The translations under genes and the position numbers were made by a program. Below are positions 10,129 to 17,006 of a DNA stretch of 37,851 bases, piece after piece (the first letter of the stretch is position 1; every line of letters begins with the position of its first letter). A model generated the notes under the pieces. The model did no database searches. It was not told the origin of the DNA and was given only the letters and a program-made list of their open reading frames with translations. Source of the DNA: Bacilli bacterium (GTDB lineage Bacteria > Bacillota_I > Bacilli_A > RF39 > UBA660); NCBI GenBank assembly GCA_017542065.1, contig JAFXXX010000004.1, positions 1 to 37,851 on the forward strand, in the 5' to 3' direction.

Positions 10129-10671
10129 CTATTCATCTTTAAAAACATGATCAAAATATTCATCTAAAGAAATATGACTATTTGGTTTAGTAAATTCTAC
10201 TACTACTATTTTTTTTATTTCTTCATCAGTAATATTAAATGTTTTTAATAATTCTAAATACTTATTAAATTGATAATCTAATAATTCTTCTAAAGAATCA
10301 AATTCATGGATACCTCTATTATTACTATCAGAGTTTTCAAACCAGTACCATTTATCACTATCTTGATATATTAAAAATGAATGAACTGGATAAACATTTT
10401 TATAATTTAATCTAACCATTTCAAAGAATGTTCTTACTTCATAATTATTACTTGTAAACCAGTCTCTTTCAAATTCAACTTGATCAAAACAATCTCCATG
10501 TAGAGTTTCTAGTAAATCATCTTTATTTTGAAGAATATATTCTTTTTCCCATTTATCATAAAAATCTTTATCAGTCTTACGATATACTCTTCCAGTTTTA
10601 CCTAAATAACCATATTTAATATTATTAGACATAAACTCTAATAATTCTTCTGGAGTATTAATAGGGCCCAT
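10129..10671 (-). CDS. Hypothetical protein with possible papain/transglutaminase-like Cys-His pair
   Basis: 180 residues, no confident family. LHGDCFDQVEFERDWF (Cys61) at a helix start, followed by VYPVHSFLIYQDSDKWYWFEN (His97, then E112/N113), resembles the Cys-His-Asp/Asn order of transglutaminase-like and papain-like folds. This is inference from motif spacing only. It is the first gene of the long operon running to the left edge. An extended -10 (TGATATAAT) lies just upstream, and the ribosome site is GTAGGTGA. Confidence 0.72.
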   Translation of the reverse strand: MGPINTPEELLEFMSNNIKYGYLGKTGRVYRKTDKDFYDKWEKEYILQNKDDLLETLHGDCFDQVEFERDWFTSNNYEVRTFFEMVRLNYKNVYPVHSFLIYQDSDKWYWFENSDSNNRGIHEFDSLEELLDYQFNKYLELLKTFNITDEEIKKIVVVEFTKPNSHISLDEYFDHVFKDE

Positions 10672-10687
10672 AACATCACCTACTAAA

Positions 10688-10696
10688 ATTATATCA
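10688..10696 (-). promoter_or_regulatory. Extended -10 promoter for the 10671-to-left-edge operon
   Basis: Reading the minus strand, TGATATAAT lies 17 bp before the ATG at 10671. It directly follows the T-tract of the terminator that ends the upstream ydjC unit. The -35 position falls inside that terminator hairpin and is poor, so the TGn extension probably compensates. The predicted leader is only about 10 nt. Confidence 0.6.
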
Positions 10697-10722
10697 TAAA
10701 AAAAGTAGGATTTCTCCTACTT
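10696..10722 (-). terminator. Rho-independent terminator after ydjC-like gene
   Basis: On the minus strand an 8-bp stem AAGTAGGA/TCCTACTT with a GAAA tetraloop is followed by a run of T. It closes the nucleotidyltransferase-TIR-MurL-YdjC unit and separates it from the next operon. Confidence 0.9.
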
Positions 10723-10745
10723 ATTATTTATAAAACAAACACTTT

Positions 10746-11471
10746 TTACAGTTCGTGAAAACTAATTAATTCTATACCGTCAAATAAACCATTTTCTTTA
10801 GCTTGTTTTAATATTTCTAATTCTTTTTCTCTTTCAGTATTATAACTAGTTAAAGACATAGTATGTTCATCCATATATCCAGGATGTACCATTAATTCCA
10901 TAGATATATCTTTATCTTTATACTCATTAATAATACTTTCTAATTTTTCATAAGTAACATCTACTAAAGAAAAATCAGTATTAAATACATCAGGTCTTAC
11001 TACATCACATTCAAATTCATTTCTAATAGGTATATTTCTTTCTTTTGCAATAGCTATTTTGGCTTTTCTAATATTTTCATTAGAGCATGCAAAATGATGT
11101 GTATCTAAATGATCTATTTTAAGTTTTCCATTACTTAGTTCATCTACTTTTTTTAATTGTGCTTGTATTTCATTATAAGCATCTTCATAAGTTAAATTTG
11201 GATTAGTTAACTGAATACTTCTATGAAGAAATTCTCCATTTTCATCAGTTATATGTTCATTTGGAATAATAGGTTTCCCTTTAGTAAAATTAATATGTAA
11301 TCCTACACAATCTATATTATTTTCTAATGCTTTATTAATAGCATACTCAGCTGCTTCCATAGTAACCATTAAAGAAGTACTAGTAACAACACCTGCTTTA
11401 ATACCATCTACTATTCCATCGGTAATACTTTTTGTTAATCCAAAGTCATCTGCATTAATTATTAATCTCAT
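10746..11471 (-). CDS. YdjC/ChbG-family carbohydrate deacetylase
   Basis: 241 residues. The fold family removes acetyl groups from chitooligosaccharides or related N-acetylated sugars using a divalent metal. Metal and catalytic motifs are visible: LIINADDFG at the N-terminus (D7/D8 region), GLHINFT, LDTHHF, and MVHPGY near the C-terminus. Length is normal. The start codon overlaps the stop of the two-TM gene (TAATG). It is the last gene of the TIR/MurL operon and ends at a strong terminator. In that setting a cell-wall-derived N-acetyl sugar is a plausible substrate, but this is inference. Confidence 0.9.
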   Translation of the reverse strand: MRLIINADDFGLTKSITDGIVDGIKAGVVTSTSLMVTMEAAEYAINKALENNIDCVGLHINFTKGKPIIPNEHITDENGEFLHRSIQLTNPNLTYEDAYNEIQAQLKKVDELSNGKLKIDHLDTHHFACSNENIRKAKIAIAKERNIPIRNEFECDVVRPDVFNTDFSLVDVTYEKLESIINEYKDKDISMELMVHPGYMDEHTMSLTSYNTEREKELEILKQAKENGLFDGIELISFHEL

Positions 11472-11773
11472 TATTTACTATTCTTTCTAGAACTCTTAAC
11501 TGCAGAAGCTGCTTTAGTAGCTTTAGTAGTTAGTTCTTCTAAATCTTTAGAATCCATTTTATTATTAATACCATTTTTAAGTTCATCTTCTTTTTTACTA
11601 ACTAAAGCTATTAAGAAAGTAAGTAAACCAGTAATAGATGCAAGTGCTGCTTCATCTAAAGCAAATATAGCATCTGGTACAAATATATCTACTATAGTTA
11701 TTACTCCAAATACAATAGTAGCTACTATTAAAACGATTCTAAGAATATGATATGTCTTAATTTGTTTTTCCAT
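11471..11773 (-). CDS. Small two-transmembrane protein, unknown function
   Basis: 100 residues. Two hydrophobic segments are at about 10-32 (ILRIVLIVATIVFGVITIV) and 43-61 (ASITGLLTFLIALV). A charged, Lys-rich C-terminal tail follows, containing TTKATKAASAVKSSRKNSK. The layout is holin-like but nothing else supports a phage role. The AAAGGAGATAATT ribosome site is strong. It lies between the murL-like and ydjC-like genes, 12 bp and -1 bp away, so it belongs to that operon and may anchor or accompany its products at the membrane. Confidence 0.75.
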   Translation of the reverse strand: MEKQIKTYHILRIVLIVATIVFGVITIVDIFVPDAIFALDEAALASITGLLTFLIALVSKKEDELKNGINNKMDSKDLEELTTKATKAASAVKSSRKNSK

Positions 11774-11785
11774 AATTATCTCCTT

Positions 11786-13102
11786 TTATAATGATTTTTT
11801 TAATACTTTTAAAAAATCGTCTGGAACATTATTATCATAATATAATCTATGAATATCCATATCTATATCTTGATAATAATTATCTTTATATAAATTAACT
11901 AAGTATGATGTATCACCATCATCTATTATTCTATTTAAAGCATATTTAACTTCATCTATTGTACCTATACAATCAAATGGTTTAGTTTCTGCTTCTCCAA
12001 TTAATTCTAAGAATATCTTTTCTAAATCTTTATCATCTAACATATTTGTTCCAAATATATCTACTACTTTGGATTTAGATAAGAATGCTCTTAAAGCTAT
12101 AAATACAAATAAACATTTAGGACATTTACAACACCATTCCCATGGTGTTTTTTTAGAGCCTAAATTACAACTTCTAAATATTTTATGATAACTATCTAAT
12201 TTAGAAAAGATATATGCTATTTGAATTTCTTTAATAGGTCTAAGTAAACTAAAATAATTAATATCTATTTTAAAATACTTTTTAGTATAGTTATAAAAAT
12301 CTTGTTCAAACTCATATGATTTAGAATATTGATGATTTATATTAGTTCCTATTATAGTAGATTCATTAGCAGATCCTTCATTAGATAATACAATATATTT
12401 TCTATTTGTTAGGTATGCTATTAAATATGAAATAAAAGCATATATAGAGCTTATTGGAACATGTCCATTTAAGAATCCTCTATTGTTTAAGTCTATTATT
12501 TTATCTTTATCTATATCTCTTTTAACTGAGTATAACTCAGTATCACCTGAACATTTATAATGTTCTTCTTTAGGGCTAACAGTTAGAGTTTTATTATCTT
12601 GTCCCCTTAATAGTTCTAAAGATACAATAGAATCTTTTCCACCACCAATTGGAATTAGATTTCCACTTCCAGTGTAATTAACGTCTCCTATTTCATCTTT
12701 AGGTCCCTTATTAATAAAAGTAAATAAATCTTTTTCAGATATATTTATTTCATTCTTATACAGGAATTCTCCAAGTCCATTATAATATAGTTTCTTAAAC
12801 CATTCTTGTTCTTCATCCTCTAAATACCCTGCTTCTAAAACAATATTCTTTGGACATACTATTTTATAATAACTAACTAATTCTGCTAAACCTATTCTAA
12901 ATATAATAGCATTTAACAAATTCTTATTTATATCTTTGTTAGTTATAATACTTTTACTAAATGATAGAGATGGGTTAAATGTAGCTAAATTTGGTATTTC
13001 AAATTCAAATACAATTTTGTATTCTTCACCTTCATCTATAAGTTTATAACTACGATAAATTATTACGTTATACGTATTTCTAAGTTCATCAAATTTATGC
13101 AT
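11786..13102 (-). CDS. murL: MurL-like UDP-MurNAc-L-Ala-L-Glu epimerase
   Basis: 438 residues. MurL converts the L-Glu of UDP-MurNAc-L-Ala-L-Glu to D-Glu, replacing the glutamate racemase route with the help of a MurD2-type ligase. Recognisable blocks are an ATP-pyrophosphatase-like PIGGGKDSIVSLELL (151-165), LSNEGSANES (239-248), NHQYSKSYEFE (256-266), SLLRPIKEI (285-293), SCN (311-313), and the cysteine cluster WCCKCPKC (323-330). The order and length agree with that family as I recall it. The gene lies 17 bp after the TIR gene in one operon, an unusual setting. A family relative with another substrate cannot be excluded. Confidence 0.8.
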   Translation of the reverse strand: MHKFDELRNTYNVIIYRSYKLIDEGEEYKIVFEFEIPNLATFNPSLSFSKSIITNKDINKNLLNAIIFRIGLAELVSYYKIVCPKNIVLEAGYLEDEEQEWFKKLYYNGLGEFLYKNEINISEKDLFTFINKGPKDEIGDVNYTGSGNLIPIGGGKDSIVSLELLRGQDNKTLTVSPKEEHYKCSGDTELYSVKRDIDKDKIIDLNNRGFLNGHVPISSIYAFISYLIAYLTNRKYIVLSNEGSANESTIIGTNINHQYSKSYEFEQDFYNYTKKYFKIDINYFSLLRPIKEIQIAYIFSKLDSYHKIFRSCNLGSKKTPWEWCCKCPKCLFVFIALRAFLSKSKVVDIFGTNMLDDKDLEKIFLELIGEAETKPFDCIGTIDEVKYALNRIIDDGDTSYLVNLYKDNYYQDIDMDIHRLYYDNNVPDDFLKVLKKSL

Positions 13103-13119
13103 ACATTTACCTCTTTATC

Positions 13120-15474
13120 TTATTTTAAATATTCTTTTGCTTCTTTTAATAAATCATCTAAAGTATATATCTTTAGTGAATAAAACTTATTATTTGTTTT
13201 AATAATTAATTTATCTTTATCTACTGCACATAATTTATTAACTCTACCAACTTTATTATAGTTTTTATCAATTATATATACGTAAGATATATCACCAACA
13301 TATATTCTTCCATATACATCTTTACCATAATATGCATCAGCATCATGAATACCTGTTACTGTGTTTAACAAAGTTTTATCTTTTACATTATAAATAGCTA
13401 ATTCATTATTAATATAATATACAAATAATAAAGTTTTCTTATCATCATAGAACATCTTTGATATTAAGTTCTTATTTTGAACATCATATTCTTCTTTTAA
13501 CTTTTTAACATCAGAAGTTCCTAGATTTTTAATCTTTGGTTCTTCATAAGTTTTATCTATTTCTTTTAATCTTGTATTATTATTTTGAGCATAATAGATA
13601 ACTCTATTTTCATTATATGGAACTAATAGGAATCCTTTTTCAGCTTTAGCTACTTTTGAATATCTTTCTAAATTAAATGTAAACTTAGCATCATATTGTA
13701 AATTAGTTCCTTTTTCTCTATCAATATAATTTACTTTACCACCTGTAGTAAATGCTAAATATACTTCTTCATCTGTAAATCCATATATATCCATTATTTC
13801 ACTCTTAGTATTAAATCTATTTAAAAGATTACCATTTTCATCTAATACATCTAATTCATTATTATGAACAAGTAATACATGATTAATATCATCTACTAGA
13901 GATTTATATAGATATTTACCCCATACATCATCTTGTTTATAAGTCCAATTAACTCTATTTTCTTTATAGTTATATGAAACTGCTACTAAACAGTATTCTG
14001 AACCAGTAGATCTATTTAATAACATATAAACATTATCACCAGTAGTAAACATACCAGATGTATATCCAGCATCTACTTTAAGACTATTTATTTCTTTTTG
14101 ATTTTCTAATTCTATTACTCTAACAGTTAAAGTATCATTATCTATTTGATAGAAGCTTTCTTCAGTTACTGTAAATAGATATTTATAGTCTTCAGAGAAA
14201 TACATTTCATCATTGAAGTATTCACTAGTAGTATAAACTCCTAATTCTTTATTTTCTTCTACACCATAAACATGTAATTCTTGTCTATTAGTATAAACAA
14301 TATATTTTCCATCCATACTACCTTTAATAGACATATATACACTATCTTTTTCTCTATCTATAGTTTTAATTAATTTTCCATCTTTAGTATTTAAGATATT
14401 TATTCCACCATCTTTATTTATGTATGCAAATACATCATCACCTGCAAATGTAAATGAATAATTATCCATAGAATTACTTGATATATCTTTATAAGAAGAT
14501 ATCATTTTAAGTGTTTTAGTATCCCATAAAGAAAGTACTTCTGATTCATCATAAATAAGTGCATACTTAGATGTTTTAGAGTCTTTAATAAAGTCTACTA
14601 CACCATCAGTTTTAATTTCCGAAACAGCTTTATATGTAGTACTAGAATCATATACACCAAGAGCATCTACTAAAGCATATTCTGCATCTGAAGTATATGG
14701 CATTTTAACACCATTAAACTTAGTTAATGATTCATATGCTTCTTTAACAGCATCATATCTACTATCATTATCTAATGATTTTTCAGAACTTTCACTTAAA
14801 GATAATGCTTGATGTAATTTTAATGTCTTTGATTGACTACTAATCTTTATAAGCATAATAGATGAATATAAAGAGAATAGTATAAAGAATACTGCTATAG
14901 ATCCTATAATCATTAATCTTCTTTTTTGTTCTCTTTGTTTATGTCTTTGTTTTAAATCATCATAATCAAGTTTATACATAGGAGCAACTAATCTTAATAC
15001 TTCTTCTTTTATTTTCTTAAGTATTTCTTTTTTACTAGTTCCTCTTACATCAGCAGCTAAAGGTTCAATTATCTTACCTTTATCATGTAATAATTCTTCT
15101 GGAAAAGAATCTGCTGGTTCTCCCTCAATTAATACACAAAAGATATTTTCTCTACCTCTAATTTTCTTAAAAGTCTCTATTTCTTTTTTACACCATAAAG
15201 AGTCTTTTAATCTAGGAGAACAAATAACTATTAAGTATTTAGAATTATTTAAAGCATCGATAATAGGATCCTCTAAATTACTTGAAAGTGGTAATTCATC
15301 TTGATCTCTAAATACTCTTTTAATACTTCTTCCTGTAATACCTAATTTTTCTTTTACATTCTTAGGTAAATCATAGTTTTCTAAAGTTTTATGTAGGTTC
15401 TCTGCTACAAACTTATCTAAATCACAATGTCTATAACTTATAAACGCATCATACTTATAATTTTTATCTTCCAT
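13120..15474 (-). CDS. TIR domain - transmembrane - beta-propeller protein
   Basis: 784 residues. The N-terminal TIR domain (about 6-165) opens with YDAFISYRHCD and contains VFRDQDELPLSSNL and the SLWCKKE block. Glu98 there sits where TIR NADases have their catalytic Glu. A basic stretch (KQREQKRR) leads into one transmembrane helix at about 187-209. The remaining 570 residues form WD40/quinoprotein-like repeats with sheets such as SLWDTKTLK, INILNTKDGKLI and LAIYNVKDKTLL, probably outside the cell. It looks like a sensor whose propeller controls an intracellular TIR. Its start overlaps the nucleotidyltransferase gene by 11 bp, and MurL follows. Confidence 0.88.
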   Translation of the reverse strand: MEDKNYKYDAFISYRHCDLDKFVAENLHKTLENYDLPKNVKEKLGITGRSIKRVFRDQDELPLSSNLEDPIIDALNNSKYLIVICSPRLKDSLWCKKEIETFKKIRGRENIFCVLIEGEPADSFPEELLHDKGKIIEPLAADVRGTSKKEILKKIKEEVLRLVAPMYKLDYDDLKQRHKQREQKRRLMIIGSIAVFFILFSLYSSIMLIKISSQSKTLKLHQALSLSESSEKSLDNDSRYDAVKEAYESLTKFNGVKMPYTSDAEYALVDALGVYDSSTTYKAVSEIKTDGVVDFIKDSKTSKYALIYDESEVLSLWDTKTLKMISSYKDISSNSMDNYSFTFAGDDVFAYINKDGGINILNTKDGKLIKTIDREKDSVYMSIKGSMDGKYIVYTNRQELHVYGVEENKELGVYTTSEYFNDEMYFSEDYKYLFTVTEESFYQIDNDTLTVRVIELENQKEINSLKVDAGYTSGMFTTGDNVYMLLNRSTGSEYCLVAVSYNYKENRVNWTYKQDDVWGKYLYKSLVDDINHVLLVHNNELDVLDENGNLLNRFNTKSEIMDIYGFTDEEVYLAFTTGGKVNYIDREKGTNLQYDAKFTFNLERYSKVAKAEKGFLLVPYNENRVIYYAQNNNTRLKEIDKTYEEPKIKNLGTSDVKKLKEEYDVQNKNLISKMFYDDKKTLLFVYYINNELAIYNVKDKTLLNTVTGIHDADAYYGKDVYGRIYVGDISYVYIIDKNYNKVGRVNKLCAVDKDKLIIKTNNKFYSLKIYTLDDLLKEAKEYLK

Positions 15475-15847
15475 TTAAATCACCTTTCATATATTCTTCT
15501 ACTACTTTTATTTTTGAAATATCCTTTTCTCTTTTATTAGTAATTAAATATTTATAATAATCATGTATTTCTTGTAGATAGTAACCATCTATTAATTCTC
15601 TTTTACCATCCATAGAATCAACACAGCATTCAATTTTATCATTAATTATATACCATTTTTCATCTTTAGGTTTTACATCATAATATTTTTTAAATTCTTC
15701 TAAACCTTTTTTAGTAACAGCTAAATCTAAATCATTTACTGTTTTCCAAATTCCTCTAACTACTAAAGCACAAGTAGATAAAACAGTATATTCATTTTTA
15801 TCAACTGGAATACTATCTAATAGTTTAAATATTTCATTTTTATCCAT
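15464..15847 (-). CDS. Small nucleotidyltransferase-fold protein (AbiEii/MNT-like)
   Basis: 127 residues. YTVLSTCALVVRGIWKTVND leads to DLDLAV, matching the minimal pol-beta nucleotidyltransferase pattern of a small-residue turn followed by DxD (D39, D41). The match is closest to AbiEii-like/MNT proteins, several of which act as toxins or antitoxins. The usual GG/GS turn is ST, so activity is uncertain. The short C-terminus is helical and charged. It is the first gene of the TIR/MurL operon, behind TGGTATTAT and an AGGTGG ribosome site, and it overlaps the TIR gene by 11 bp. Confidence 0.72.
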   Translation of the reverse strand: MDKNEIFKLLDSIPVDKNEYTVLSTCALVVRGIWKTVNDLDLAVTKKGLEEFKKYYDVKPKDEKWYIINDKIECCVDSMDGKRELIDGYYLQEIHDYYKYLITNKREKDISKIKVVEEYMKGDLNGR

Positions 15848-15864
15848 TTAAACCACCTATATAT

Positions 15865-15873
15865 ATAATACCA
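15865..15873 (-). promoter_or_regulatory. Extended -10 promoter of the nucleotidyltransferase-TIR-MurL operon
   Basis: The minus strand carries TGGTATTAT 18 bp before the ATG at 15847, directly after the terminator of the zinc-ribbon genes. No further promoter or terminator is apparent until 10722. All five genes should therefore be made from one transcript of about 5.1 kb. Confidence 0.6.
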
Positions 15874-15875
15874 TA

Positions 15876-15905
15876 ATAAAAAGATTAAGATATATCTTAA
15901 TCTTT
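15876..15905 (-). terminator. Terminator overlapping the stop of the first zinc-ribbon gene
   Basis: A perfect 13-bp palindromic stem (AAAGATTAAGATA and its complement) is followed by T-rich sequence on the minus strand. The TAA stop of the 15904 gene lies at the stem base. Confidence 0.85.
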
Positions 15906-16233
15906 ATTTTTGTAAAATAGCTGATATTATATATGACAAAAACCATAATGTCATACCTACAGCAGAAATAATTATTCCTACCATTGCAGGTTTCTTTCCA
16001 ATATCATTATGTCTTTTAGCATAACAGTATCCAATTATAGATAATGCTAATCCTACATTAGGAATCATAATTCCAAACACTATTCCTAAAGTTGCAAATT
16101 TATTATAAGTTACTTCTTCATCGTCACTAAAAAAACTATGTTTATATTCACCTTTATTAGCAGTTCCACATTCTACGCAAAATGTTGCATCAATATCCAT
16201 TGGTTTACCACATCTTGTACAATATTTTTTCAT
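15904..16233 (-). CDS. Zinc-ribbon membrane protein (DUF4190-like), copy 1
   Basis: 109 residues. The N-terminal zinc ribbon is CTRCGKPMDIDATFCVEC, two CxxC knuckles. A spacer follows, then two hydrophobic segments (FATLGIVFGIMIPNVGLALSIIGY and about 85-106), as in DUF4190-type membrane proteins. It shares this plan with the next two genes and is probably a duplicate. The gap to copy 2 is only 4 bp, and its weak ribosome site lies in the end of that gene. Function is unknown; the ribbon should face the cytoplasm. Confidence 0.82.
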   Translation of the reverse strand: MKKYCTRCGKPMDIDATFCVECGTANKGEYKHSFFSDDEEVTYNKFATLGIVFGIMIPNVGLALSIIGYCYAKRHNDIGKKPAMVGIIISAVGMTLWFLSYIISAILQK

Positions 16234-16237
16234 ATTT

Positions 16238-16579
16238 CTAATAACCTAATTCCTTTCTTACTCCTATAACAATTATAATAATATATGCAATAATACAAAG
16301 TAACCAGATAGAAGCTGATATTATACCAGATAAAGCTATTGCTCTTCCCCTTCCTTCATATTTATCAGATTTTTTAAAAGCTATAATAGATATTATTAAA
16401 CCTACTAATGGAGCTGAATTAGATAATACAAGACCTATAGCAGGTAATATTAATGTCTTATCTATTCTTGCTTTAGGTTTATCATCTTTATAACTACTAT
16501 CATAAGTAGATCCACATTCAGTGCAAAATGTTGCATCTGAATCTAATGACTTTCCACAATTAGTACAATATTTACTCAT
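16238..16579 (-). CDS. Zinc-ribbon membrane protein (DUF4190-like), copy 2
   Basis: 113 residues with the ribbon CTNCGKSLDSDATFCTEC at 5-22 and two membrane spans (LILPAIGLVLSNSAPLVGLIISIIA region and about 86-107). The AGGTGATAATT ribosome site fixes the ATG at 16579; a GTG nine bases upstream is part of that site. It is transcribed with copy 1 from an extended -10 at 16597-16605. Function is unknown. Confidence 0.82.
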   Translation of the reverse strand: MSKYCTNCGKSLDSDATFCTECGSTYDSSYKDDKPKARIDKTLILPAIGLVLSNSAPLVGLIISIIAFKKSDKYEGRGRAIALSGIISASIWLLCIIAYIIIIVIGVRKELGY

Positions 16580-16596
16580 AATTATCACCTAAATAA

Positions 16597-16605
16597 ATTA
16601 TAACA
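16597..16605 (-). promoter_or_regulatory. Extended -10 promoter for zinc-ribbon copies 2 and 1
   Basis: TGTTATAAT on the minus strand, 18 bp before the ATG at 16579 and directly beside the terminator of copy 3. Confidence 0.6.
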
Positions 16606-16636
16606 TAAAAAAAGATTAAGTTTATACTTAATCTTT
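16605..16636 (-). terminator. Terminator after zinc-ribbon copy 3
   Basis: A 10-bp stem AAAGATTAAG/CTTAATCTTT with a 6-nt loop is followed by T7 on the minus strand. The stem sequence is almost the same as in the terminator at 15876-15905, consistent with duplication of a gene-plus-terminator unit. Confidence 0.9.
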
Positions 16637-16643
16637 TTCTATC

Positions 16644-17006
16644 TTAATAGTAATAACTTGATCCAACAGCAGCAGCTATAACAACCATATAATAAATTAT
16701 AGATGCTATAACACTTAATACCATCCAAACAATTGAAAGTATTAAACCAGCTTTAGCAAGTCCTCTACCATTTCCGCCTAATTGGTTAGCTTTATTAAGA
16801 CCAACAATTGAGAATATTAATCCTAATACAGGAACAAAGAAAGATAAAATGAAACCAGCAGTTGCCATTCCATTTCTAGTTTCTCCACTATTTGAACTTT
16901 CAACAACTTTAGCTTCTGCTTTTCCATCAGTTGATGTTCCACAGTTAGCACAGAAAGTTGCATCTTTTTCTATTTCGCTACCACATTTAGCACAAAATTT
17001 TCCCAT
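16644..17006 (-). CDS. Zinc-ribbon membrane protein (DUF4190-like), copy 3
   Basis: 120 residues. The ribbon CAKCGSEIEKDATFCANC is followed by a low-complexity linker (KAEAKVVESSNSGET). Two hydrophobic spans follow: ATAGFILSFFVPVLGLIFSIV and the IVWMVLSVIASIIYYMVVIAA region. The AGGLAKAGLILSI-like loop between the spans is the DUF4190 signature; here it reads NGRGLAKAGLIL. It has its own promoter and terminator, separate from copies 1 and 2. Function is unknown. Confidence 0.85.
   Translation of the reverse strand: MGKFCAKCGSEIEKDATFCANCGTSTDGKAEAKVVESSNSGETRNGMATAGFILSFFVPVLGLIFSIVGLNKANQLGGNGRGLAKAGLILSIVWMVLSVIASIIYYMVVIAAAVGSSYYY

Follow-up and report, generated by a model that had tools for sequence, protein, structure and literature searches.

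Bacterial TIR proteins studied so far are mostly soluble and respond to intracellular phage cues. Those that cleave nicotinamide adenine dinucleotide (NAD), among them ThsB of Thoeris, SpbK and TIR-SAVED, share a TIR_2 or ThsB_TIR domain with a conserved glutamate. So does a 784-residue protein encoded in the DNA analysed here, a 37,851-nucleotide window (the whole stretch presented above) that is one contig of the 903-kb, 81% complete genome of a Bacilli bacterium (G000). Unlike those enzymes, this protein is predicted to be anchored in the membrane with a beta-propeller outside, lies in a household chromosomal context, and has none of the known partners such as ThsA, SAVED or Argonaute. Its predicted layout also resembles that of Toll-like and IL-1 receptors, which have one transmembrane (TM) segment, a cytoplasmic TIR domain and an outer recognition domain built of repeats (PMC7075850). 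However, the TIR domain is N-terminal here, a beta-propeller takes the place of leucine-rich repeats or immunoglobulin domains, and the host is bacterial; there is no sign that the two whole architectures share descent. Among openly licensed papers, we found no description of TIR-WD40 or TIR-propeller membrane proteins, or of the TIR-DHH pairs described below.

The TIR gene stands in a tight run of five genes, two of whose other members recall described systems. One encodes a homologue of MurL with conserved residues, as in the alternative MurD2-MurL peptidoglycan pathway (PMC8788868), although here no MurD2 adjoins it or is found in the genome. Another encodes a small protein with two TM segments and a genetic link to a nucleotide-acting gene, as in SLATT/DUF4231 proteins and the 2TM effectors of PADLOC, although here the scores fall under the cut-offs and no cyclase gene was found. 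The original prediction joined all five genes into one cell-wall surveillance or defence module and proposed that the same gene order in several genera would support this. Comparison with relatives gives a different picture: the five genes are not one machine but a species-specific juxtaposition. The functional unit is probably a receptor-like TIR protein with a linked two-TM protein, the remaining three genes being passengers.

Gene content in relatives

The five open reading frames, whose coordinates were reproduced exactly, all lie on the minus strand with gaps of -11, +17, +12 and -1 bp, between an extended -10 element and a terminator:

15865-15873, minus strand: extended -10 TGGTATTAT, probable TIR promoter (same sequence in G002 and G006)
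15464-15847, minus strand: nucleotidyltransferase (NTase), 127 residues (open reading frame)
13120-15474, minus strand: TIR-TM-propeller protein, 784 residues (open reading frame, profile matches and model)
11786-13102, minus strand: MurL-type epimerase, 438 residues, no MurD2 adjacent (profile match, alignment and tree)
11471-11773, minus strand: two-TM protein, 100 residues (open reading frame, TM segments and presence in relatives)
10746-11471, minus strand: YdjC/ChbG-type deacetylase, 241 residues (profile match, 1.8e-45)
10703-10722, minus strand: terminator hairpin followed by seven T (identical in sister species G002)

Nine of 12 genomes of the genus, and one sister genus, carry the TIR gene. 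This gives nine TIR-carrying relatives besides the window genome (eight in the genus, one in the sister genus), and in none of them does the NTase or MurL lie beside TIR; YdjC does so in only one. The order already changes in the sister species G002, whose TIR protein is 98% identical. There it runs zr3-zr2-zr1-TIR-NUDIX-TM2-YdjC-next operon (zr, zinc-ribbon gene; TM2, two-TM gene). The next relative, G006 (TIR 75% identical), has zr3-zr1-TIR-TM2 and then other genes; YdjC is absent, and the two-TM gene directly follows TIR. In the other TIR-carrying relatives the neighbours of TIR differ from those in these three genomes, and within the genus YdjC is common only to the window species and its sister. 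Among 80 homologous loci, MurL is found near TIR once, upstream at a distance of 3.4 kb and four genes, where it is paired with MurD2. Related genomes thus separate TIR from the NTase and MurL, an outcome that the original prediction itself had said would refute it.

The transcript fared better than the module. The predicted extended -10 and strong terminator are both present and conserved in G002, and in G002 and G006 the -10 runs directly into TIR. With an unchanged -10 in both nearest species and an unchanged terminator in the sister, the outer transcript limits are credible. No further terminator-like site was found on the minus strand between the extended -10 and position 10722, again as predicted, and the gene beyond the terminator has a -10 of its own. 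The five genes are therefore probably co-transcribed. Nonetheless, gaps of at most 20 bp occur in 26 of the 40 same-strand neighbour pairs of the window, so tight spacing is in itself no evidence of a module. As this case shows, the tight operons of these small, co-directional gut genomes mix unrelated genes, and guilt by association therefore needs a check in close relatives.

A receptor-like TIR protein

The 784-residue protein matches TIR_2 (1.7e-10, above the cut-off), ThsB_TIR and beta-propeller models. In the structural model, a TIR domain (about residues 7-166) is followed by a helix (171-235) that contains the single TM segment (193-211), an eight-bladed propeller (280-632) and about three further propeller blades (637-768). 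The main propeller resembles WD40 and other eight-bladed propellers (VIA Z 25-29, root-mean-square deviation ~3 over ~320 residues). A basic stretch precedes the TM segment, and by the positive-inside rule the TIR domain would be cytoplasmic and the propeller outside the membrane. This part of the original prediction, with the TIR inside, one TM segment and the propeller outside, is supported at the level of prediction.

Glu98, the catalytic-type glutamate of the conserved WCxxE motif, does not vary among 36 Bacilli and Clostridia proteins, nor do the FRDxxEL and WC motifs. The ratio of non-synonymous to synonymous substitution is 0.02-0.07 for the TIR part versus 0.15-0.69 for the propeller, and identity to the Clostridia members is 55-72% versus 17-25%. 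This is the pattern that a conserved output joined to a divergent sensor would show, and the protein is probably receptor-like and NAD-cleaving. Its gene, a stable part of the chromosome, is surrounded by housekeeping genes. An assignment to Thoeris was rejected: it has no model support, and no ThsA-type partner (SIR2-SLOG or Macro) was matched by any model among the five genes. No other defence gene turned up near TIR.

The nucleotidyltransferase is a recent insertion

Profile search gave the 127-residue protein no clear family, and its fold was assigned from an AlphaFold2 model (predicted local distance difference test score 93.9), which is that of a nucleotidyltransferase. The best Foldseek match is TM1012 (2ewr, E 3.6e-5), with JHP933 and ANT(2'')-Ia also among the best. 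In G002 and G006 the TIR site has no such gene, and promoter, ribosome-binding sequence GGTGATTTAAATGGA and TIR follow one another directly. In the window it is flanked by two near-identical 15-mers (15857-15843 and 15484-15470), recognized by comparison with relatives:

15843-15857, minus strand: first copy, GGTG(G/A)TTTAAATGGA, ribosome-binding sequence and start; the NTase insertion has its left edge here
15470-15484, minus strand: second copy, GGTGATTTAAATGGA, original TIR ribosome-binding sequence and start

The final codons and stop of the NTase come from the TIR leader sequence. By sequence, the gene is a clean and recent insertion between the promoter and ribosome-binding sequence of TIR and the TIR gene itself. 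Its homologues in the family are located elsewhere, either single or fused to GNAT, transglutaminase (TGase)-like or other domains; it is a domain that has been shuffled, not a partner of TIR. Examples of such fusions carry a GNAT-like domain (L029:1498-2439), another domain (L031:907-1929) or a TGase-like domain (L032:934-1872), the last being homologous to the window gene at 10129-10671.

The suggestion that the protein belongs to an AbiEii/MNT toxin-antitoxin system holds as far as the nucleotidyltransferase fold, but no antitoxin or HEPN partner was found beside it, its neighbours being TIR and a zinc-ribbon membrane protein. CBASS was also considered and rejected. That assignment, which calls for a CD-NTase with a cyclic-nucleotide-activated effector, is without model support: PADLOC gave no CD-NTase model match for the protein, and a CD-NTase structure ranks no better than E 0.11.

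An orphan, displaced MurL

The epimerase matches the MurL profile NF041275 at 2.8e-77, but with 260 bits against a cut-off of 700. MurL is present in one of the 12 genus genomes, and homologues occur in 48 of 291 family genomes. A MurD2-type ligase lies directly downstream in 31 of the 32 other MurL loci inspected in the family; the lone exception is a second MurL copy in G580 (L135:1489-2820), a genome whose other copy is paired with MurD2. The window genome contains no MurD2 in its 81% complete sequence, only a canonical MurD that is 30% identical to MurD2, and its MurL is thus an orphan. The closest MurL, 72% identical, is the MurD2-paired copy upstream of TIR in L067. The two are sisters in the tree (support 100/99), and the window branch is not long. 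At 102 invariant columns of the family, the window protein has five conservative changes and keeps the others.

MurL is a recent, displaced gene in the window. Its position is occupied by just 9 bp in G006, and in G002 by a NUDIX gene (L011:9614-10150) followed by ~22 bp that resemble the 3' end of MurL. The NUDIX gene is a probable one-for-one replacement at the MurL site. The ancestor shared by G000 and G002 may have carried MurL, with replacement following in G002, although the short, A/T-rich match is only suggestive.

The two-TM protein as candidate partner

The two-TM protein has TM segments at about residues 10-28 and 41-59. Its gene occurs in four of 60 genomes, all of them TIR-positive and in every case near TIR (hypergeometric p 0.0004, uncorrected for kinship); in three genomes it is adjacent to TIR or one gene off. 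In G006 it is 92% identical to the window copy, versus 75% for TIR. Another copy, 50% identical, lies 2.7 kb from TIR in L073. These observations make it the best candidate TIR partner in this lineage. No family could be assigned, since matches stay below the cut-offs (DUF4231 at 0.033, 15 bits versus 24.7; PADLOC 2TM at 0.002). The fourth genome, G024, has a frame-broken homologue (L018, minus strand, near 15450-15750) some 4 kb from TIR.

Competing explanations

The NTase, the orphan MurL and YdjC are best read as passengers of a fast-shuffling, co-directional gene run. For the remaining pair, a ligand or envelope change would draw the propellers together, and the TIR domains would then pair inside the cell. 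Glu98-dependent cleavage of NAD+ would lower NAD or yield an ADP-ribose signal; at the membrane, the two-TM protein may pass this on or act as its effector. Several points weigh against this account. Not every TIR domain is an enzyme, and the NADase activity of this subfamily is a prediction. Divergence of the propeller could possibly reflect relaxed constraint instead of sensing. In most family genomes TIR lacks a two-TM gene, so this partner is not universal, and the link between the two is based on few lineages. Co-transcription, finally, could still give the NTase, MurL or YdjC a species-specific role.

It is unlikely that the TIR protein is instead a scaffold, a structural membrane protein or a household regulator without NADase activity. 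Such a role would fit a stable chromosomal gene set amid housekeeping genes, outside any defence island and with no further defence gene found nearby. Against it stand a catalytic-type Glu98 and adjoining motifs that do not vary across two classes, and a TIR domain under stronger constraint than the rest of the protein. Far less probable still is a single five-gene operon for wall surveillance or defence. In that model, wall fragments sensed by the propeller would be processed by MurL and YdjC, and the NTase would be a toxin-antitoxin or defence component. A single transcript is likely, given the conserved promoter and terminator; both MurL and YdjC belong to enzyme families of the wall or of amino sugars, and MurL retains the invariant residues of its family. 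However, only one genome has the combination, the NTase and MurL are missing at this site in close relatives, the close packing is background in the window, the single TIR locus with MurL nearby among the 80 has it with MurD2, and no PADLOC model supports the module. This reading is already largely refuted.

MurL may have a cell-wall role separate from TIR. No strong match to MurI or to a D-amino-acid transaminase was found in the 81% complete genome, so MurL may supply D-glutamate, provided that the canonical MurD tolerates L-glutamate. MurD of S. mutans accepts L-glutamate slightly (PMC8788868), and the MurD of the window genome is closest to a streptococcal MurD (3lk7). Of the MurD residues named in PMC8788868 and read here for stereospecificity, the D182 equivalent varies (A in G000, E or D in MurD2s), and the K348 equivalent is Arg in both the canonical MurD and MurD2 groups. 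The retained residues of MurL, and its branch that is not long, also favour this proposal. Set against this, several genus members lack both MurI and MurL, the genome is incomplete, and an aspartate/glutamate-racemase-like gene exists. We regard the proposal as possible but lean somewhat against it.

The wider family and a DHH partner

A scan of species genomes found the 80 TIR-TM-propeller loci in gut Bacilli, Lachnospiraceae and Clostridiaceae. The spread is patchy: in a class-wide sample of 395 Bacilli genomes, only four have the gene. Fifty-four Clostridia loci have flanks long enough to show the neighbours of TIR, and in 33 of them TIR adjoins a DHH-DHHA1 phosphoesterase of about 510 residues. 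The phosphoesterase gene almost always shares the strand of TIR and immediately precedes it, the gaps ranging from -89 to +157 bp. Four examples lie upstream of TIR:

L075:6385-7986, DHH-DHHA1 gene
L078:6385-7932, DHH-DHHA1 gene
L106:6444-7982, DHH-DHHA1 gene
L132:6444-7970, DHH-DHHA1 gene

The outer contexts of the pair vary and the DHH catalytic motifs are kept; the protein is not an equivalog of NrnA, RecJ or PPase. The DHH-TIR pair, and not the five-gene operon, is the conserved association, and the DHH protein is a candidate signal-erasing partner of TIR. A DHH partner is absent from the window's genus. NUDIX was rejected as a specific TIR partner in rumen Bacilli: it lies at most four genes from TIR in eight loci, but NUDIX genes are dense there, with three across the 18 kb of L067, and the association was put down to background. 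In one Lachnospiraceae genome, two TIR-TM-propeller paralogues stand in tandem (L078:7971-12985).

Tentatively, and with the odds against so broad a statement, these loci would form a broad gut-Bacillota family of membrane TIR receptors with divergent sensor propellers. Each lineage would have a linked partner of its own, namely the two-TM protein in these Bacilli and a DHH protein in Clostridia that would erase a TIR-made nucleotide signal. If true, a widespread family that joins a TIR inside to a fast-diverging propeller outside, with small partners that are stable, would be the bacterial counterpart of Toll-type receptors. What bacteria sense beyond the membrane with a TIR output would then become testable. 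The architecture is notable, and the family with its two-TM and DHH partners merits attention.

Surrounding genes

The run sits among household genes, namely those for a Mur ligase, DNA polymerase III PolC, a ribosomal RNA methylase, a ribosome-binding GTPase and a peptide deformylase, and not in a defence island. One further feature marks the upstream boundary:

15880-15905, minus strand: A/T-rich inverted repeat AAAGATTAAGATATATCTTAATCTTT, probable upstream transcript end (sequence; conserved in relatives)

This hairpin, placed just 3' of the upstream zinc-ribbon gene, is the same in G002 and differs by one base in G006, and probably ends the zinc-ribbon transcript. Directly upstream of the TIR transcript are three tandem genes for zinc-ribbon proteins with two TM segments (DUF4190-like; window 15904-17006). 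Their number differs among relatives, G006 having two.
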